Assembly: GCF_958304185.1 (NCBI RefSeq)
Contig: NZ_OY284433.1
Coordinates: 1,364,001 to 1,428,000, forward strand
Direction of reading: 5' to 3'
Length of the DNA stretch: 64,000 nucleotides
Source: an uncultured Erythrobacter sp.
GTDB taxonomy: Bacteria > Pseudomonadota > Alphaproteobacteria > Sphingomonadales > Sphingomonadaceae
The notes under the pieces are model-generated. The model was not told the DNA's origin. It ran no database searches and saw only the letters and a program-made list of their open reading frames with translations. Position numbers and translations under genes: made by a program. Below, piece after piece: positions 748 to 8,084 of this stretch (the stretch's first letter is position 1; each line of letters opens with the position of its first letter).

Positions 748-774
748 GACTGGCGGAGCAGGTGTCCGCCAGTC
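748..774. repeat. Candidate distal attachment site inside a 10-bp inverted repeat
   Basis: Bases 751-764 (TGGCGGAGCAGGTG) are identical to bases 7994-8007, the last 14 bases of the tRNA-Ser gene including its CCA. The copy sits at the far end of the gene block that starts with the integrase beside that tRNA, as expected for an integrated element. The site is also inside an inverted repeat: GACTGGCGGA at 748-757 and TCCGCCAGTC at 765-774. Identity stops exactly after 14 bases on one side and at once on the other. The attachment role is inferred. Confidence 0.6.
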
Positions 775-851
775 ACATCTTCTATCTTTCTGTTTTTTCT
801 TGTCAAAACTCAATACTGTGCATCTGTCCCCCACATTTTTGCCCACAACGA

Positions 852-1385
852 CTACTCAGAAAGCTTTGCTCGGGCATCCTCACCTGCCATTTGGTCGATA
901 ATCCTATCCAAGCTGCCATACTTGACGGTGGAGATTTTGCCGAGGCAAGTGTCGATCTGGCTACGGATCGTAGCAAGCACTCTCGAGCCATGATCTGTAC
1001 CAGTAAGCAGAGTATTGGTAGAGCAATAGACAAACGACCCACTATGAAAAGTTCCATCAGGCTTTGGCCATTTATCGAACCGTTCAATCGTTATCGATAT
1101 GTTCGAAGTACAGTACAATCCATCAGGCAGGGTGGTTACAGCGATCCAAACGAACGGCTTTGATTTGTCCTCGGTATAAGCGATGCGATTGAAGCGCAAA
1201 GATGACTTTGTTGCACCTTCGATACTGTCCAACGACAAGCCACACTTTCTCCAAGCTTCATCATCCCGCTCGATAATAACAGCCATTTCTGTTGGAATGT
1301 CCTGCGCCTCGATCCTCTCAGGCGTTTGCAATGTTAAAATCGCAGAAAGTATCGCTCCAAGATTTTTTGCTGAAACTAACACCAA
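852..1385 (-). CDS. Hypothetical protein, possibly exported
   Basis: This 177-residue protein is not recognised. Residues 5-27 are mostly hydrophobic and end at an alanine-glutamine pair after a proline-rich bit, so a signal peptide or membrane anchor is possible. The rest is mixed polar sequence with several cysteines. Its start overlaps the end of the nuclease gene by ten bases, so both are probably translated from one message with the 97-residue gene upstream. It is the last gene before the candidate attachment site, so it belongs to the element's left-hand cargo. Codon use and lower GC fit accessory DNA. Confidence 0.6.
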   Translation of the reverse strand: MVLVSAKNLGAILSAILTLQTPERIEAQDIPTEMAVIIERDDEAWRKCGLSLDSIEGATKSSLRFNRIAYTEDKSKPFVWIAVTTLPDGLYCTSNISITIERFDKWPKPDGTFHSGSFVYCSTNTLLTGTDHGSRVLATIRSQIDTCLGKISTVKYGSLDRIIDQMAGEDARAKLSE

Positions 1386-1750
1386 CCCCTCCTATCCCCC
1401 CAGCGCCGAGCAAGCCCCTCGCTGACTAACTGTTCTCCTATCGAGCGGCCTGAGCGCGTCACCTTCACCAGCGTTCGCCCGTAGCGGTCGACCCCTTGCG
1501 AATGCAGCTCGAAACGCCCGGCGTTCATCAAAGCGGCTAGGCGATAAGTTGCCGCCCGTCCCAGCCTTGCTTCTTCCGGGCATCGCGGTTTGCTTACCTC
1601 TGGCGCGTCTATCTCCGCCAGCCGGTATTTGATACGGTTATGCCAAAAGGTGTCCCCGTCCACCACACAGGTAACGCGCCTACCTTCGCCACATATCGGA
1701 AAGCTCGGGTCATCCCCCACTAGGGCGAGCGCAAACAATAGTTCAATCAT
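1376..1750 (-). CDS. Thermonuclease-like (SNase domain) protein
   Basis: This 124-residue protein is a short staphylococcal-nuclease-like (OB fold) domain. Near residue 30 it has the motif VVDGDTF, followed by YRLAEIDAPE near 42-51 and DRYGRTLV near 87-94. These correspond to the Ca-binding aspartates and the catalytic arginines and glutamate region of the SNase family, which cleaves DNA or RNA at phosphodiester bonds. The first twelve residues are hydrophobic, but it is not clear they form an export signal. It lies between two unknown genes in a minus-strand group on the integrative element. It could process DNA during transfer or act as cargo; neither is shown. Confidence 0.8.
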   Translation of the reverse strand: MIELLFALALVGDDPSFPICGEGRRVTCVVDGDTFWHNRIKYRLAEIDAPEVSKPRCPEEARLGRAATYRLAALMNAGRFELHSQGVDRYGRTLVKVTRSGRSIGEQLVSEGLARRWGDRRGWC

Positions 1751-1799
1751 GGTGCGCCCCTAATGTCAGCAAGCCTCAATACCGCGCTCACCTTCGCCG

Positions 1800-2093
1800 T
1801 TACCTTGCCCTGCCGTAAGCCGGAGAAGCTAAGCCATCGGCAAGGCCCGCGTCTGGGAACGCGCTCACGAATGCCTGAGCGGTTTCGAGATTGCGGAAAT
1901 AGAACGCTGCCGTGCTGCAAGCCAAGCCGGGCGCGCTGTGACAAGCAAAGTCCACGGCTGGGACATTGACCCTTAGCCAAGCCATCATTCTATCAAGCGT
2001 TGCCCCTAACCCGTTTTCCGGGACGCGGATTTTCACTCGGATCGGGAAGGCCAATTCATCCCGCCTAGCCTGCCGAATCGAATGCGCTGCCAT
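1800..2093 (-). CDS. Hypothetical protein of the integrative element
   Basis: This 97-residue protein is first in the minus-strand trio with the SNase-like protein. It reads as a compact alpha/beta sequence with a conserved-looking centre (MAWLRVNVPAVDF) and a second half built on a phenylalanine-rich stretch. No family is recognised. An alternative frame covering 1747-1980 has a composition rich in arginine and proline and no plausible start, and was rejected. The upstream 240 bases separate it from the divergent ATPase gene, so the two probably share a divergent promoter region. Confidence 0.6.
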   Translation of the reverse strand: MAAHSIRQARRDELAFPIRVKIRVPENGLGATLDRMMAWLRVNVPAVDFACHSAPGLACSTAAFYFRNLETAQAFVSAFPDAGLADGLASPAYGRAR

Positions 2094-2284
2094 GCCTCGA
2101 ACATTAGGGGAACGGTGTTGGCCCGCAAGGCCTCTCGCGCGTGCGCGCGGGCGAAAAACTGGTTTAGCGTTATGGCGTAGTAGCAGGCCCGGTCCTTGTG
2201 TCAGTGATGGTAGAGATTTGAACCACCCCTAAGGGCCGCTGCCGGGCTGGCGCAAACTAAGCCACAGGCGCTAAAAAATCCGAA

Positions 2285-2302
2285 CTAGAAGGAATTCCTA
2301 GC
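2285..2302. promoter_or_regulatory. Near-palindrome in the divergent promoter region
   Basis: The sequence CTAGAAGGAATTCCTAG is nearly palindromic around GGAATTCC, 32 to 49 bases before the ATG of the ATPase-regulator gene. Its position between two divergent genes of the element fits an operator, but no regulator or promoter boxes can be assigned with certainty. Confidence 0.3.
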
Positions 2303-2333
2303 AGAATGCCTTGTGCCGACATAGCGTCGAGAC

Positions 2334-3944
2334 ATGTCGACGCGTCGAGTCGAAGGGGTGGAGTTTATTTCCGTGGAACAGATGGGCTTTGCTTTCCAGT
2401 ATCCCAATAGAGATTCGGCCCGTCACATGTCGGTGGACGAAATATATGATAGAATGAAACAATCTGTCGCCGTCGACATCGATGAAAATGACAAAATTGA
2501 AAGGAAAAGCGCTCGATACGCCCCGAAAGACCTTGGAATATATTTTTCAATGTGGGCCAATACACCGCCTTTTGGGGGTGTGATTGTCATTGGTGTCGAG
2601 AACGATGGTAAGGTCAGCGGAATTAATCATGTTTCCCCAAACCATGTGAGCGAACTTCAGCGCGCAGGAGACGTTTATTGCCCTGATGCAAGATACCAAT
2701 GCAAAACTGTTCCTGTAGTAAATCAAAATGGTGAGCCTGACAGTATTATCGTATTTCGTGTGCTTTATCGTGAAGATAAAGTCGTCGAAACGATCTCAGG
2801 CAAGGCCTTCTCTCGTAGAGGTTCTTCAAAGCGAGAACTGTCGCAGGACGAAAAGAGAGAATTACAGATTGCAAAGGGCCAGCTTGAAATTGAGCGAGAG
2901 CCGGTTTCTCTGATTTATCCTCAAGACTTCGACCAATCGTTAATTAAGGCATTTGTGGACAGTGTGCGGGCATCGCGCGGCATGTCGGAGACGCATTCGA
3001 CTGAGGATATTCTTGAACTACGACGGCTGGGAAAGCGCGCTGATAGCGCTTTCATTCCAAATCTCGCATGCGCTGTTCTCTTTGCCAAAGACCCGCAGAC
3101 TGTCGTCCCCGGTTGCAAGGTCCGGTTCGTGCGGTTTGAAGGCACGGAGGAGAAAACGGGTCGGGAGCGCAACGCGATTAAAAGTGCGTGGATTGAAGGC
3201 CCCATACCGACGCTGATTAAGGAATGCGAGAAGGTGCTTGAAGCACAGCTGCGAGAATTCATGCGCCTAGGACCAAAAGGTGAATTTGTGTCCACGGCAG
3301 AGTATCCAAAAGATGCGTGGTATGAAGCCGTTGTAAATGCGTGCGTTCATCGATCCTACAATCTCAAAAACATGCATATCTCAATCAAGATGTTCGACAA
3401 TCGGTTAGAAGTCGAAAGTCCGGGTGGGTTTCCACCGATGGTGACGGCAGAAAACATCTATGACATGCACTCGCCTCGCAATCCGCATGTAATGGATGCG
3501 CTCTTTTATCTCAATTTCGTCCTTTGCGAGCATGAAGGGACACGTCGCATCCGCGATACGATGAAACAACTTGGGCTGCCGTCTCCCATGTTTGAAGAGA
3601 TTACCTCAACGGCTGCGACATTCCGTATCACTCTGAAAAATAGCATTGAACACCGAACGAATTTTGTCGATCAAGAGGCATTCAAGGTGTTGGGCAAAGA
3701 GCTTAGCGAAGGACTGACAGATAAAGAACGACGAATAGTCAACTATGTCGTCGAACGGCAAACCATTAACGTTACAGAGGCATCAAAACTAACCAACGTG
3801 CGATGGCATACAATCAAAAAGTCTCTTAATGGCCTAGTCGATAGAGGAATTCTTGATCACATTCATAGCAGCACGATAGATCGAGACCGACATGCCTACT
3901 ATGTCTTAAAAAAGCGATATGTCGACAAGCTACAACGGCGGTGA
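2334..3944 (+). CDS. AlbA/Schlafen-type ATP-binding regulator
   Basis: This 536-residue protein has the layout of the COG2865 group. Residues 45-175 form an AlbA_2 (Schlafen AlbA) domain, seen in the motif IERKSARYAPKDL and the following GGVIVIGVENDGKVSGI. Residues 325-440 hold a degenerate GHKL-type ATPase segment with the N-box-like EAVVNACVHRSY. The last 80 residues look like a winged helix. Family members bind nucleic acid or ATP and act as regulators; some relatives sit in defence loci, so a protective role is possible but unproved. It is the only plus-strand gene of the element and its GC is lower than the core. The start has only a weak ribosome binding site. Confidence 0.8.
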   Translation: MSTRRVEGVEFISVEQMGFAFQYPNRDSARHMSVDEIYDRMKQSVAVDIDENDKIERKSARYAPKDLGIYFSMWANTPPFGGVIVIGVENDGKVSGINHVSPNHVSELQRAGDVYCPDARYQCKTVPVVNQNGEPDSIIVFRVLYREDKVVETISGKAFSRRGSSKRELSQDEKRELQIAKGQLEIEREPVSLIYPQDFDQSLIKAFVDSVRASRGMSETHSTEDILELRRLGKRADSAFIPNLACAVLFAKDPQTVVPGCKVRFVRFEGTEEKTGRERNAIKSAWIEGPIPTLIKECEKVLEAQLREFMRLGPKGEFVSTAEYPKDAWYEAVVNACVHRSYNLKNMHISIKMFDNRLEVESPGGFPPMVTAENIYDMHSPRNPHVMDALFYLNFVLCEHEGTRRIRDTMKQLGLPSPMFEEITSTAATFRITLKNSIEHRTNFVDQEAFKVLGKELSEGLTDKERRIVNYVVERQTINVTEASKLTNVRWHTIKKSLNGLVDRGILDHIHSSTIDRDRHAYYVLKKRYVDKLQRR

Positions 3945-3961
3945 ATAATCAATCATGGGGG

Positions 3962-4696
3962 CTAGCTTTGCATCGCAGCCCTTAAATTCTGCGTCCTACC
4001 CCACCGCTTGCCGATAATCGCACCGCCCGGCTTTAGCAGGTCCAATCCGAGCTCCGCCGCCACCGCGCTATCACTGCCCTTCGTGAGATAATTCCCCAGC
4101 CGCTCTAGATTCAGCCGGTAAAGGTCCGGGCTTGTCCAAGCGCAATTAAGGCTTCCGCCCACCGGCCTAATCCGGCTCACGCCTTTGTGGTACTGTCCGC
4201 CCGCCGTCTTGATCCAACGCCGTGTGAGATAGCCAATTTTCCAGCCGCGCGGCCAATGCATAGCGATGTGAACGTGCGCGCCATTGCGCTTCCCAACCTC
4301 CCGAACCCAAACTGCCGCAAAGCTCCCGCCTCTTGCCCGCGCATATCGGCGCGGAAGATTCAGCAACCGGCCCACGAATGCAGCTCCGTCCCGGTCGGCA
4401 ATGCCCACCAATTCGTAATCAACAATCCAGTGACGGGTCAGCGGCATTCCTGCCAGATCGGCATAGGCCATTGCTATCAACACGCCCTCGGCTTGGCGCT
4501 GTGATAGGGCAGTCGTTACCCGGTCCCGGCGGTTGCGAGCGCCGCCCCATGTCCCGCGCGCACGCGTAATGTTCCGCGTGTCTGTCGTCCCTCTCGCGCA
4601 CGCGCGCACGCGAGGCTCAAGTGGACACGGTTCATCCGGTTGCAGCGGGAGAAAGCAATCTAGCGGATGGGATGACGGGTAACTGTAAGTTTGCAT
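3962..4696 (-). CDS. HUH-motif protein, candidate rolling-circle replication initiator
   Basis: With this start the protein has 244 residues. The segment REVGKRNGAHVHIAMHWP holds an HxH pair (His141, His143) as in HUH endonucleases. A later YLTKG motif (Tyr203, Lys206) resembles the nicking tyrosine and conserved lysine of Rep/Gp2-type initiators, with about 60 residues between, as usual. HUH enzymes nick one strand at an origin and stay linked to the 5' end. Placement on a small integrase-bearing element suggests a replication or mobilisation initiator. A longer frame begins with GTG at 4771, or ATG at 4762, but its extra residues look unlike the family. The gene converges on the ATPase gene with 17 bases between stops. 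Confidence 0.65.
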   Translation of the reverse strand: MQTYSYPSSHPLDCFLPLQPDEPCPLEPRVRACARGTTDTRNITRARGTWGGARNRRDRVTTALSQRQAEGVLIAMAYADLAGMPLTRHWIVDYELVGIADRDGAAFVGRLLNLPRRYARARGGSFAAVWVREVGKRNGAHVHIAMHWPRGWKIGYLTRRWIKTAGGQYHKGVSRIRPVGGSLNCAWTSPDLYRLNLERLGNYLTKGSDSAVAAELGLDLLKPGGAIIGKRWGRTQNLRAAMQS

Positions 4697-4848
4697 GATG
4701 CGTGCCAATCTGGCGCGCGGCTGATTTCCGCCTGTTTCAGCCTGTATTATCAGGCAAGGCATTAGCCGCACTGTCCAAGTTTCAAGTTTTGTCAGGATAG
4801 GGCGGGACCACCGCGAAAAGTGGCCCCGCGCCCGTTTTTTACCGTTTC

Positions 4849-5082
4849 TTAAACGGCTCCGGAGCCTCGGCTGGCAACATACGCGGCAAGCGCCTCTGCC
4901 AGTGCCGGGACCGCATCAGGTGGGATTGTCACGCCCTTACCAGTTGGGATGGTTCCGCCATCGGCCCACCATCGCAACTCGAAGAACATCTCGCCCTTGA
5001 AGCTCCGCTCTCCTGCCAGCACAAGCCCCCCGCGCTTGGGGTATTGCCAGACAGGCGGCGAGGTGAAGCCGCTACCCTCCAT
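4849..5082 (-). CDS. PC4-like single-strand DNA binding protein (putative)
   Basis: This 77-residue protein matches the C-terminal fold of the transcriptional coactivator p15/PC4 family in pattern: FELRWWADGGTIPTGKGVTI followed by a helix (DAVPALAEALAAYV). Compare the family pattern of an arginine and aromatic residue, an acidic-glycine turn, then GKGI/V and a closing helix. PC4 proteins bind single-stranded DNA. Beside a putative HUH nickase such a protein could shield exposed strands, which is inference. The ATG at 5082 overlaps the end of the winged-helix gene by eleven bases and has GGGAG upstream, so the longer frame to 5331 is not needed. Confidence 0.6.
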   Translation of the reverse strand: MEGSGFTSPPVWQYPKRGGLVLAGERSFKGEMFFELRWWADGGTIPTGKGVTIPPDAVPALAEALAAYVASRGSGAV

Positions 5083-5575
5083 CACGGTGCTCTCCCGGTA
5101 TAGTTTCACCGACAAGCGCAATGGCAAGACGGTAGCGGGCGTGGCGATACGGACCTTCAAGCTCAGTCGTGATAGGCAAGCCATCCTCGCGCATGGCGTG
5201 GATCGAACCACCCAGCCGGGTATGCCAAGGCAGGGTATCCCATTGCGTAATGCCGCCCGGTGATGCGACAAGCATATCGAGCACGCGGGCGCGCTTACCC
5301 CTATATCGCCAAATGCGGCCTTCTGAGTCACGGTAGGCAGTCTGAGCTAAGTTGTAGCGCAGATTGCTCTGAGAAGGGCTTACAGGGCATTCTAGGCCAC
5401 TCTGGCTCTGCCTCGCGGCTGGCGTGCTGCCTGTCCGTTCGGTTCCTGGCCTAATCGTGTTGCCATCCCTCTCCGTTTGGGAGTATCCGGGTTCTGCATT
5501 TGCTTGCACAGCGATGCATTGGGGCTTGGACGCTGCGACCCGGCCAAGCCCCATTTTCGTTTCAGGCGATTGCAT
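5072..5575 (-). CDS. Winged-helix domain protein
   Basis: The chosen start gives 167 residues and has a strong ribosome binding site (AGGAGG, five to six bases before ATG), overlapping the end of the excisionase gene by 14 bases. An open frame to 5737 exists but its extra part only runs over the excisionase gene. Residues 1-80 are polar and low in structure. The second half (ARVLDMLVASPGGITQWDTL, then TRLGGSIHAMREDGLPITT) reads as a winged helix-turn-helix. It is probably translationally coupled to its neighbours in the excisionase-wHTH-PC4 group and may control replication or excision of the element. Confidence 0.7.
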   Translation of the reverse strand: MQSPETKMGLGRVAASKPQCIAVQANAEPGYSQTERDGNTIRPGTERTGSTPAARQSQSGLECPVSPSQSNLRYNLAQTAYRDSEGRIWRYRGKRARVLDMLVASPGGITQWDTLPWHTRLGGSIHAMREDGLPITTELEGPYRHARYRLAIALVGETIPGEHRDGG

Positions 5576-5765
5576 TGGCACCTCCTGCGATGATCGGAAG
5601 GCTAGCGGCCCAAGCCTCTGCATCCTCCCGCGCGATGCGCGTTGCGCTGCCAAACTTGCGAAGCCTGATGCGGCCCGCCGCCGCCTCACGATACAACGAG
5701 GTTTTTCCGACCCGGTAGCGTTCGCAAAAGTCGGCAACTGTCATCAATTCAGATGGGGCTTGCAT
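5562..5765 (-). CDS. AlpA/excisionase-type helix-turn-helix protein
   Basis: This 67-residue protein carries a MerR-like winged helix typical of AlpA regulators and recombination directionality factors: LMTVADFCERYRVGKTSLYR near residues 7-26, then GRIRLRKFGSATRI and a closing acidic helix. Such proteins bend attachment-site DNA and favour excision, or activate the integrase gene. It lies upstream of, and overlaps, the winged-helix gene. With the integrase 900 bases away it makes a plausible Int-Xis pair for the element. Confidence 0.8.
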   Translation of the reverse strand: MQAPSELMTVADFCERYRVGKTSLYREAAAGRIRLRKFGSATRIAREDAEAWAASLPIIAGGANAIA

Positions 5766-5899
5766 GGCCCTGTCTCCTGCCCGGAAGTTAGCGCCGGGGG
5801 CGCACCGCAGCGGATGCCGTGGTGCTGCTAGGGATAGCGGGAGCCATGTCTGGCGCTGTCAGATAGTCTTCATTGTTGAGCGATTGGAATGTCCGACAC

Positions 5900-6679
5900 T
5901 CACCAATTTCGGTATGCTTCCCACAAGATGGCTTGTCGGTCAGGAGTCTCTCTTTCCTGCATCCTTACAAACGCACATGCCTGAAAAAATCTCTGCCATT
6001 CGTTCGCTTCCGCGATAGGCACATGGGCCGATCCACCATCGGGCTTCGGTGCGATACCAAATTCGCAGTGGAATATCGTGAGCAGCTTTGTCGCTAAATC
6101 GATCCGGGTGTTTCGAAGAGTTTTTCCTCGCCAGCGAGGTGGCTGACTATGCTCAGCAAGCCATGCTGATACCGTCTCATGGGACTTAATCAGCGCTTCG
6201 ATCATTGGAATATTTCCATTGGTTCCCGCCTCCGACAACATTGCGGCAACGGAAAAGTCTATGCTGTGATTGAACTCATACAACATAGCACGCACGGCTT
6301 CGAGTTTGACGATGCAAGCATCGACATCACGTCTCAGCTCTGCGTGACCTTTTCGGGTGTCAGGCACATCGAATTGAACAAAGATCAAATCCAATTCGAA
6401 CAGAAAATTCTCCCAACCGGAGTTGGGAATCAGCACGAATCCAAAGTCTACAAATGCCTGTCGAATTCTTGCATGTCTTGCAGCCATTGGAGCCATCAGG
6501 CCCATACGCTCGAAGCAAGTAAGCATTTCGATATTTTGAGAGCGCAAAGCCTTTGCATATGCATCGGCATACTCACGGGGTGATAATTCGCCTAAGTCAG
6601 TCCTGCGGCTAAAAGCTTCTATTTCTGCGTTGTGTTCTTTTTCCTTTTCCGAGCGGTCCCGCCCCCGCTCCTCGCTCAT
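5900..6679 (-). CDS. Hypothetical protein coupled to the integrase gene
   Basis: This 259-residue, mostly alpha-helical protein has a highly charged N-terminus and no recognised domain, membrane span or signal. Its ATG overlaps the integrase stop codon (ATGA), so it is translationally coupled to the integrase and likely made with it. That coupling suggests a role in integration, excision or control of the element, but this is inference. Its GC is below that of the core genes. Confidence 0.7.
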   Translation of the reverse strand: MSEERGRDRSEKEKEHNAEIEAFSRRTDLGELSPREYADAYAKALRSQNIEMLTCFERMGLMAPMAARHARIRQAFVDFGFVLIPNSGWENFLFELDLIFVQFDVPDTRKGHAELRRDVDACIVKLEAVRAMLYEFNHSIDFSVAAMLSEAGTNGNIPMIEALIKSHETVSAWLAEHSQPPRWRGKTLRNTRIDLATKLLTIFHCEFGIAPKPDGGSAHVPIAEANEWQRFFQACAFVRMQERETPDRQAILWEAYRNW

Positions 6680-7878
6680 TTTGCCAGCCGCACGACATTG
6701 CAGCCAAGCGCCCCGTCACAGTAGCTCGCCCATGCCGCCATAAGCTCCCGGCGCTTTTCGAGCATTGTCCCGCGCTGATAGGCGGCGACTGTCTTATCGC
6801 TCACCACGTGCGCAAGCGCCGCTTCTGCCAGATCGGAAGGCCAGTTGGTTTGCTCGGCAACCCAATCGCGGAAAGTGCTGCGAAAACCGTGCGCTGTAAC
6901 GCTGACTCCCATATCGCGGAGCGCCTTTGTCAGCGTCATGTCGGACAGGGGCTTGCCGCGCTTCTGGCCCGGAAAGACAAGGTCGGTGTATTCCCGGCGA
7001 TGTGCTTTCATCCGCTCGAATAGCGCCAGCGCTTGCGGAGAGAGCGGCACCACGTGTTCGCGGCCTGCCTTCATCCGCTCGGCTGGCACCGTCCACGTTG
7101 CCTCCTCTAGGTCCAATTCGCCCCAAGTCATCAACCGCACCTCTCCCGACCGTGCGGCAGTCAGGATAACAGCTTCAAGCGCCAGCCGCCCCATGCTTTC
7201 GATTTCCCGTATTTTAGGGACAAATAGGGGAATATCGGCGTGGGGGAGCGCAGCATGATGCTTCACCTTGCCGCGCTGTTTAGGGAGCGCCTTGTCGATA
7301 ACCGGCAAGGCAAGGCCGCTCGCTCGGTATCCTTTGGCGACTGCCCAATCGATCACCGTTGCGATGCGCTGGCGCAACCGGCGCGCGGTTTCGGGCTTTT
7401 CCAGCCATATGGCTGCTAGACAGTCGCGCACCGCCGCCGCGTCAATGTCGGCAACCGAACGATTGCCAAGCGAAGGCACTGCATAGGTTTCGAGCGTGTT
7501 GAGCCATTGCGCCTTGTGCTTGGGGTTTTTCCAGCTTGGCGCATTCTCAGCATGAACCTTTTTTACGGCTACGGAAAACGTCGGAATGCCAGCCGCCTTT
7601 GCACGCTCGGCAACCGGATCGATCCCTAGCTCGATTTTCTGGCGCACCTCTGCCGCGCGTTCGCGGGCAAGCTTAAGCGGGACTTTGCTGGCGCTGCCCA
7701 ACCCAATGTCGCGCCGCCGCCCGTCCTTTTGGACCCGGACGATCCAACTCTTGCTGCCGCCTTTGCCCACGATAAGGGCGAGTCCCTCACCGTCCCCATA
7801 CCGTCCCGGTGCTTTCGCCTTTGCGACTGCCGTTGCCGTCAGATTGCCCATTGCCGATTTTCCCACACTCTTTCCCAC
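6676..7878 (-). CDS. Tyrosine-recombinase integrase
   Basis: This 400-residue protein is a P4-type integrase. An N-terminal arm-binding domain (about 10-95) is followed by a core-binding domain (100-190) and the catalytic domain. All key residues are visible: Arg243 in TAARSGEVR, Lys270, His330 and Arg333 in HGFRSTFRDW, His357, and the nucleophile Tyr367 in AAYQRG. It starts 115 bases from the 3' end of tRNA-Ser, the usual place for an enzyme that inserts into a tRNA end. The first codon here is GTG; an ATG at 7851 is an alternative. The gene is intact, so the element may still be able to move. Confidence 0.95.
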   Translation of the reverse strand: MGKSVGKSAMGNLTATAVAKAKAPGRYGDGEGLALIVGKGGSKSWIVRVQKDGRRRDIGLGSASKVPLKLARERAAEVRQKIELGIDPVAERAKAAGIPTFSVAVKKVHAENAPSWKNPKHKAQWLNTLETYAVPSLGNRSVADIDAAAVRDCLAAIWLEKPETARRLRQRIATVIDWAVAKGYRASGLALPVIDKALPKQRGKVKHHAALPHADIPLFVPKIREIESMGRLALEAVILTAARSGEVRLMTWGELDLEEATWTVPAERMKAGREHVVPLSPQALALFERMKAHRREYTDLVFPGQKRGKPLSDMTLTKALRDMGVSVTAHGFRSTFRDWVAEQTNWPSDLAEAALAHVVSDKTVAAYQRGTMLEKRRELMAAWASYCDGALGCNVVRLAK

Positions 7879-7993
7879 ACATTAGCGCGGATAGTGGGGA
7901 ACGACAAGGGCCAGCCGGGAACAGCGCCCTTTACTACTTTCCTCTAAAATAGAGAAGAATAGAGGCGGCTGGGGTCTGTTGGGGTTGGGTGGT

Positions 7994-8007
7994 TGGCGGA
8001 GCAGGTG
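7994..8007. repeat. Candidate attachment site at the tRNA-Ser 3' end
   Basis: These 14 bases (TGGCGGAGCAGGTG) are the reverse complement of the tRNA 3' end with CCA and match 751-764 exactly. They bound the integrase side of the element. The extent of the true crossover region cannot be read from one sequence. Confidence 0.6.
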
Positions 8008-8084
8008 GGATTCGAACCCACGATACGCTTTTGACGTATACACACTTTCCAGGCGTGCGCCTTCGACCACTCGGCCACTGCTCC
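7994..8084 (-). tRNA. tRNA-Ser (anticodon GGA)
   Basis: Read on the minus strand the sequence begins GGAGCAGTGGCCGAGTGGTC and ends CTGCTCC, G, CCA, giving a 7-bp acceptor stem. The anticodon loop CTGGAAA gives anticodon GGA. A long variable arm follows, and the T-arm GTGGGTTCGAATCCCAC is standard, so this is a class II serine tRNA. The CCA end is encoded. Its last 14 bases are repeated at 751-764, so it is the likely attachment target, left intact by integration. Confidence 0.97.

Follow-up and report, generated by a model that had tools for sequence, protein, structure and literature searches.

The window analysed here is a stretch of 64,000 nucleotides (nt) on contig NZ_OY284433.1 of an uncultured Erythrobacter sp., and it carries an element of 7.2 kb (751-7993) inserted at the end of a tRNA-Ser(GGA) gene (Table 1). 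The 14 nt TGGCGGAGCAGGTG, corresponding to the last bases of this gene, are present exactly at 751-764 and 7994-8007, and the element occupies the 3' end of the tRNA gene without apparent damage to it. These two are the only exact copies in the genome of origin (5 contigs, 3,288,895 bases), where the reversed-pattern control gives none, confirming the exact repeat of the tRNA end that an earlier note on this DNA had pointed out. The chance expectation of a 14-nt repeat in 7,990 nt (one strand, base composition) is 3.7e-5, and none of 2,000 mononucleotide shuffles contained one. The distal copy sits within a longer palindrome, TGGCGGA-GCAGGTG-TCCGCCA (TGGCGGA, 7 nt, TCCGCCA), at 751-771.

Between the repeats, the genes of a tyrosine integrase (int), an AlpA-type protein (alpA), a winged-helix protein (whd), a PC4-like protein (pc4) and a HUH-type Rep (rep) are all open reading frames, and cargo genes follow. 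Searches with Pfam and PHROGs confirm the intact genes of the earlier description, with two of the matches under the cut-off of their families. The integrase matches Pfam with E-values of 1e-19 for the arm, 5e-25 for the core and 3e-17 for the catalytic domain, and the AlpA-type protein matches HTH_17 (1.9e-7). The PC4 match of the PC4-like protein (1.3e-5) lies exactly at the family cut-off, and its profile also matches solved PC4 proteins (best E 1.4e-5). HTH_91 in the winged-helix protein (6.5e-5) is under the Pfam cut-off, and REP_ORF2-G2P in Rep (1.1e-5) is just under it, with 26.1 bits for a cut-off of 27.8. The start codon of rep is uncertain, with 4771, 4762 and 4696 among the candidates. 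Three of the ten window proteins have no Pfam match at E 0.1, and at this threshold neither Pfam nor PHROGs gives any of the ten a match to a capsid, packaging or conjugation family, which bears out the earlier statement on the absence of such genes. Reading the element as an integrated inovirus was rejected, as no Zot/pI ATPase or coat protein match is found among the ten proteins. The Schlafen/HATPase cargo protein matches the PADLOC profile of prokaryotic Argonaute (pAgo) over residues 48-448 (2.7e-50) and phrog_12156 (2.6e-85).

Table 1. Genes and sites of the element and its borders, in window positions (aa, amino acids; att, attachment site)
Feature	Position	Strand	Remarks
Probable chromosomal DNA formerly after the tRNA: hairpin GTCCCTTGGGAC, then AAACTT	725-750	minus	Likeness to genome G196
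Distal att repeat, identical to the final 14 bases of tRNA-Ser(GGA)	751-764	plus	
177-aa protein, cargo	852-1385	minus	Relative in locus L162, 30%
Staphylococcal-type nuclease-like protein	1376-1750	minus	Also located distally in several other members of the family
97-aa protein	1800-2093	minus	Recurs near the nuclease gene in relatives
Schlafen AlbA_2 / HATPase_c_4 (RecG C-terminal-like) cargo protein	2334-3944	plus	C terminus with weak winged-helix-type matches
HUH Rep, REP_ORF2-G2P-like	3962-4771	minus	HVHI at residues 166-169; Y228 and K231 conserved
CTTGAAACTT, conserved, candidate Rep nick site	4777-4786	minus	
G+C-rich hairpin, preceding the candidate nick site by 13 nt; both form the candidate origin	4800-4832	minus	
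PC4-like protein, 77 aa, predicted to bind single-stranded DNA	4849-5082	minus	Pfam PC4
Winged-helix protein, HTH_91-like	5072-5575	minus	Gene end overlaps the start of the PC4-like gene
AlpA/MerR-type excisionase or directionality factor, 67 aa	5562-5765	minus	HTH_17
259-aa protein in the variable int-coupled slot	5900-6679	minus	Overlaps int by 4 nt
P4/CP4-57-type tyrosine integrase, 400 aa	6676-7878	minus	
tRNA-Ser(GGA), target gene	7994-8084	minus	Proximal att core at its 3' end (7994-8007)

Rep was found in 47 of the 396 genomes of the order and, by profile search, in 8 of 385 genomes sampled across the class, the window genome being included in both counts. We compared 33 regions (32 around Rep, and locus L115, picked for a repeat near a tRNA gene) and added 18 further ones, 7 of them on contigs already among the 33. 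Judged by its genes, the window element is a member of a family of small integrative elements found mainly in sphingomonads. The order in close members is tRNA / int - variable gene - alpA - winged helix - PC4 - rep - cargo, and several of them end in the genes of the 97-aa protein and the nuclease. The closest relative, in Porphyrobacter sp. SLTP (L083, on a contig shared with L161), has core proteins 88-96% identical to those of the window and differs from it in the gene that follows int and in its cargo. In Erythrobacter fulvus sf7 (L162), identity reaches 91% for both int (best match, residues 106-400) and alpA. The tRNA-Ser members span 4.4-12.7 kb (n = 17), the smallest delineated one being that of Novosphingobium fuchskuhlense (L172) with 4,407 bp. 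The core gene set is found elsewhere at tRNA-Ser, where the earlier note had suggested looking for it, making the element a family member and not a one-off; the view of the gene combination as unusual was only partly right, since the core cassette recurs across Sphingomonadales. No paper naming this family is among those listed by a literature search that covered neither subscription journals nor preprints.

The scan for tRNA repeats covered 51 rows, representing 44 distinct loci. The final 14 bases of a tRNA are exactly repeated 3-19 kb downstream in 27 rows, corresponding to 23 of the 44 loci, window included. The target is tRNA-Ser in 17 of these 23 (anticodons GGA, CGA, GCT and TGA) and tRNA-Arg or tRNA-Glu in six, which were left out of further comparison. 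In the tRNA-Ser set, the repeat of each element copies its own tRNA (with CACCTGC, CTCCTGC, CTCACTC and others), and all end in TCCGCCA. GA directly precedes the repeat in 17/17 members, placing GAC at the same position in each; for L091, which has two repeat copies, the nearer one with GAC was used, the farther one being a longer match to the tRNA without GAC. The bases in front of the element-borne copy tend to mirror its end, as paired core sites of an integrase would be expected to do. Members L102 and L110 have int at the opposite end from the intact tRNA-Ser gene, and the same 14-nt repeat is found with GAC in place. Loci with tRNA-Ser and int and without an exact repeat are L088, L090, L094, L096, L163, L176 and L177, with the duplicates L167 and L170, and several of the tRNA-Ser rows lacking an exact repeat reach contig ends. 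The proposal that this is a compact integrative element with att repeats as its borders is therefore supported, with 17 distinct tRNA-Ser members carrying a 14-nt repeat from their own tRNA. Certain k-mers recur at the int-side ends of 15 elements as well, AACGGCAAGG in 6 and CCAGCCG in 11 of them (background maxima 3 and 6). This signal is weaker than that of the 10-mer at the candidate origin described below, and these k-mers, which lie between the tRNA and int, are perhaps arm sites of the integrase.

Empty sites were found for three relatives. In a search of 71 genomes, the joined flanks of L085 match genome G484 over their full length (700 nt, 86%). For L092, whose junction is at 250, the match runs across it to position 354 with G260 and to 336 with G529 (86-87%; 60 genomes). 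The joined flanks of L162, with the junction at 700/701, match G020 at 607-1593, G009 at 552-1054, G529 and G260 at 605-1248 and G008 at 596-930, with 68-75% identity and extending 230-893 nt past the junction, in a search limited to loci already in the comparison set. For the window site, the 26 bases outside 751, with a small hairpin and ACAAACTT, are equal by eye at 21 positions to those that directly follow an intact tRNA-Ser(GGA) in G196, one of 114 genus genomes. Elsewhere, the junction motif occurs only in the window genome and in G396, each time marking the distal end of an element, and G396 continues beyond the junction with DNA found about 2.7 kb further out in the window genome. The expectation of empty sites in relatives thus holds for the members L085, L092 and L162 and shrinks to these 26 nt for the window itself, because the left side of the tRNA is not syntenic in 20 relatives. 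In these 20 congeners (L034-L053), synteny is lacking past the 3' end of tRNA-Ser(GGA), and the other side matches in 20/20. Searching with the left flank revealed no empty site: 9 of the 114 genus genomes, the window's own included, match the 2.75 kb left of 751, none over more than 279 bases outside its own genome. In L037, L042, L047 and L050, the match on this side is confined to a stretch 4.1-5.0 kb further left, by a serine-recombinase gene. The left side of tRNA-Ser(GGA) appears to be an insertion hotspot or a rearrangement point.

Alignment of 31 Reps revealed that E158, H166, P174, W186, Y228, K231, G254 and R256 are invariant, with H168 present in at least 90%. REP_ORF2-G2P is matched by 26 of the 31 family members at E 0.01, and YagK_YfjJ_C by one (0.0097). 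The AlphaFold model of Rep has a mean predicted local distance difference test (pLDDT) value of 77, with most of residues 1-74 under 50. Using this model, Foldseek returned parvovirus, adeno-associated virus (AAV) or IS200-type nucleases, assigned as HUH-type from their listed titles, for nine of the top ten hits, none at E 0.001 or better, and the Rep sequence profile reaches parvovirus NS1 only at E 0.46-0.51. The window Rep has no Pfam match to Rep_1 at E 0.1. No Rep relative was found in plasmid records or in phage records, and the viral contigs contain a single distant one (L160, 1596-2135, 26% identity), encoded alongside portal and terminase-like genes. In its Pfam and PHROGs matches, Rep is closer to replication initiators than to named relaxases.

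Comparison of the non-coding stretches of 15 delineated elements points to the region just before rep. The 10-mer CTTGAAACTT lies before the Rep domain, within about 350 nt, in 13 of the 15 elements, and none of 30 random placements exceeded 4. Within 700 nt of rep it is present at 24 of the 47 loci scanned; L093 was counted as a miss since its second Rep was picked, and its first Rep has the site. Hairpins were analysed at 25 loci chosen for the exact 10-mer, so that motif identity among them is by choice. These loci contain 26 copies in 399 kb, 25 of them at rep and one inside int of L084 (dropped), and 20 control loci contain none in 337 kb. A G+C-rich hairpin is predicted for the 50 nt preceding the motif at each of the 25 loci, with its pairing ending 4-18 nt short of the motif. 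The folding z-score has a mean of -2.0 and is below -1 for 19 of the 25. CTTGAAA, contained in CTTGAAACTT, differs by one base from CTTGATA, which the available text of PMC10378824 gives as the Rep_1 nick site. We regard the hairpin and CTTGAAACTT as the candidate nicking origin of Rep, from which rolling-circle copying would likely proceed after excision. Another candidate for origin or ends, the CGCGCGTGCGCG-type repeats (2131-2154 and 4590-4613), was set aside; no such k-mer is among the top shared k-mers.

The hairpin and CTTGAAACTT could also be merely a terminator followed by the -35 box (TTGAAA) of the rep promoter, which we consider very improbable. TTGAAA does look like a -35 hexamer and the hairpins are G+C-rich, but a T-run of at least 5 in the 22 nt before the motif is seen in just 3 of the 25 sequences, and the best -10 match at 15-19 nt spacing reaches at most 4/6 in all 25. 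A consensus scan of the window for terminators and promoters found neither at the motif. Moreover, ten exact bases in 13 of 15 elements would exceed what a -35 box requires.

Combining the boundaries, the gene set and the candidate origin, we think it likely that this is an integrative element excised by integrase and AlpA, copied by Rep as a rolling circle and transferred by a helper. The tyrosine integrase would recombine a core made of the last 14 bases of tRNA-Ser(GGA), and AlpA would switch it to excision, the two being the expected excision pair. In the excised circle, the HUH Rep would nick CTTGAAACTT beside the hairpin, just before rep, and thereby drive rolling-circle copying of the circle; the PC4-like protein would coat the single strand, and the winged-helix protein would probably aid the origin or regulate the operon. 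A helper, by phage packaging or as a conjugative system acting on the Rep-bound strand, would move the element between cells. Given a Rep, a single-strand binder and a nick-like site, rolling-circle copying is the simplest reading, and as no transfer genes are recognised in the window element, its transfer probably needs a helper.

Several observations weigh against this account. The repeat alone does not mark the family, because genome G016 (L115) has the same 14-mer 9.7 kb from tRNA-Ser, and the 19.9 kb read there around tRNA-Ser(GGA) contain no relatives of the ten window proteins; L115 is possibly a different element at the same tRNA-Ser(GGA) site. The window's own empty site amounts to 26 nt in one genome (G196). 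Some members, among them L086, L099 and L111, yielded no match for PC4 or the winged helix. The exact 10-mer is missing at 23 of the 47 rep loci, mostly those with distant Reps but also at L088 and L164, whose Reps are close, and two of the 15 delineated elements (L099 and L111) lack it. Finally, the hairpin of L084 is no stabler than its shuffles (z +1.3), and z is above -1 for 6 of the 25 hairpins.

As to how such an element would move, sequence alone does not tell the mobilisable, satellite and plasmid-like options apart. That it is a phage satellite, excised, copied by Rep and then packaged by a helper phage in the manner of I55 or PICMI, is a real possibility. I55-type islands have IntY, AlpA, an inovirus Gp2-like protein, a helix-turn-helix (HTH) protein and a 14-bp repeat without transfer genes, and I55 itself is transduced by a jumbo phage (PMC12595487, in its available text), and the PICMI set int-iolg-alpA-up1-prim (PMC10803314, likewise) is the same kind of minimal set as here. 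On the other hand, no PHROGs family described as structural or packaging is matched at E 1e-5 by the 102 cargo open reading frames (at least 80 aa) of 16 other elements, which match 25 PHROGs families, 14 of them without any description, and the phage records and viral contigs are as poor in Rep relatives as reported above. Possible but doubtful is an integrative mobilizable element, in which Rep is a relaxase, the hairpin and CTTGAAACTT are an origin of transfer (oriT), and a resident conjugative system carries the strand. Relaxase oriTs are laid out as a hairpin followed by the nic site, and the hairpin 4-18 nt before the conserved site resembles this layout. In addition, transfer of plasmids with Rep_1-type HUH Reps is possible by means of the coupling protein of ICEBs1, according to the available text of PMC5714925. 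Within the window element, however, no protein matches a coupling-protein or known relaxase family, and Rep is more like replication initiators than named relaxases.

The element may also be an immobile remnant, that is, a decayed island in which genes and boundaries persist after movement was lost, and this we find improbable. Most genomes of the order are without Rep, partial relatives exist, such as L178 with only the end of rep and the 97-aa gene, and the Rep match in G020 contains one in-frame TGA. Nevertheless, the five core genes of the window element are open, its att repeat is exact and both motif and hairpin are present, and the closest relative combines its 88-96% identical core proteins with different cargo. 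Transfer of an excised, Rep-copied element by a helper remains our preferred account.

Many genomic islands have integrase and AlpA but no visible route of replication or movement. The small core, the defined att core and the candidate nick site make the replication question testable here, namely whether the Gp2/HUH-type Rep recurring in such islands starts rolling-circle copying, and where. We also put forward, tentatively and as unlikely, that the elements form an undescribed Sphingomonadales family of integrating rolling-circle replicons, with a dedicated cassette of the winged-helix protein, the PC4-like single-strand binder, the HUH Rep and its origin of hairpin and CTTGAAACTT, which would act in both replication and transfer with any helper. 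If so, one and the same nick would allow a copy to be made within its host or handed on to a new one.

Beyond the core, cargo across the family includes copper-resistance genes, SRAP, a Y-family polymerase, PIN domains and an AbiD-type protein among the matches listed, which cover 25 of the 52 matching Pfam families. The int-coupled slot shows a 4-nt overlap with int in 15 of 33 distinct loci, as counted by a script favouring that start where present. Its proteins fall into several mutually dissimilar groups, the slot is missing in some elements, and no open reading frame of at least 120 aa occupies it in L086, L092 and L172. A fold search with the 259-aa protein gave no match. The 4-nt overlap had suggested the 259-aa gene as an equivalent of PICMI iolg, but it was rejected as a core gene in view of the dissimilar or missing slot proteins and of L090, where the gene overlapping int is alpA. 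Additional pieces of the C-terminal part of rep are found downstream of the full gene in L083 (11375-11518), L087 (6616-6897 and 8221) and L090 (12246-12482), and one stands on its own in L178 (6846-6914); other partial Rep matches cover N-terminal or middle parts. The C-terminal fragments could mark past exchange of cargo at the 3' end of rep. Outside the element, the window contains at 135-180 and 228-240 a perfect 18-nt inverted repeat, TACCTCTCAGGTATATAC, with more copies of TACCTGAGAGGTA, in an operator-like arrangement. About 3.2-5.3 kb left of the window (L001, 14701-16790), the gene of a DUF2924 protein is followed by that of a large serine recombinase, a pair that is probably another mobile element beside the window element.

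Among known systems, the I55-type Pseudomonas islands (I23, I44 and I55) have an integrase, AlpA, a Gp2-like protein and an HTH protein and, in the available text of PMC12595487, share with the window family the 14-bp direct repeat at the 3' end of an RNA gene, the cargo and the lack of transfer genes. As described there, they differ by their tmRNA site, their larger size (the shared region alone is 18 kb), YqaJ and, often, RadC. The window family is characterised by its tRNA-Ser site, by PC4-like and HTH_91-like proteins in many members and by its occurrence in Sphingomonadales; unlike in the I55 type, the integrase of the window element is not directly downstream of tmRNA, its target being tRNA-Ser(GGA). 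We take the inovirus Gp2-like protein of these islands to be PF11726. The sequence link to the window Rep, gauged with E. coli YfjJ, is weak: hhalign gives E 9e-4 with a probability of only 22%, covering WVRE...HxH...YxxK. The PICMI satellites of Vibrionaceae (PMC10803314, in its available text) resemble the window element in their minimal set, with int followed by a 4-nt-overlapping gene, alpA and a replication protein. They carry a DUF3987/DUF5906 primase and occupy the fis site, whereas the window element has a HUH Rep at tRNA-Ser(GGA) and, among its ten proteins, no Pfam or PHROGs match to this primase. The int-overlapping gene, described as essential for excision in PICMI, is variable or missing in the window family. 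Thus, int and AlpA are shared with PICMI, but neither the primase and fis location of PICMI nor the tmRNA location of I55 is found, and the window element is therefore a variant apart from both.

CP4-57 of E. coli K-12 has a similar order of int, a further gene, alpA and replication genes (annotated as int - yfjH - alpA - yfjI - yfjJ), and its integrase is 29% identical to that of the window over about 400 aa. It differs by the DUF3987 protein YfjI, by lying beside smpB in the record, and in that the annotation of the stretch read shows no PC4-like gene. Rolling-circle plasmids of the Rep_1 type, pC194 for example, have, in the available texts of PMC10378824 and PMC5714925, a HUH Rep with the nick site upstream of rep, as proposed here. 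They are free plasmids, unlike the integrated window element, whose Rep has no match to their family. Actinomycete integrative and conjugative elements (AICEs) such as pSAM2 combine an int-xis-rep module at a tRNA gene with a rolling-circle Rep and a TraB-type transfer ATPase. No TraB-type ATPase is recognised in the window element. Minimal islands of the integrase/AlpA kind are thus already known, and what is new here is the hairpin with the CTTGAAACTT site before rep.

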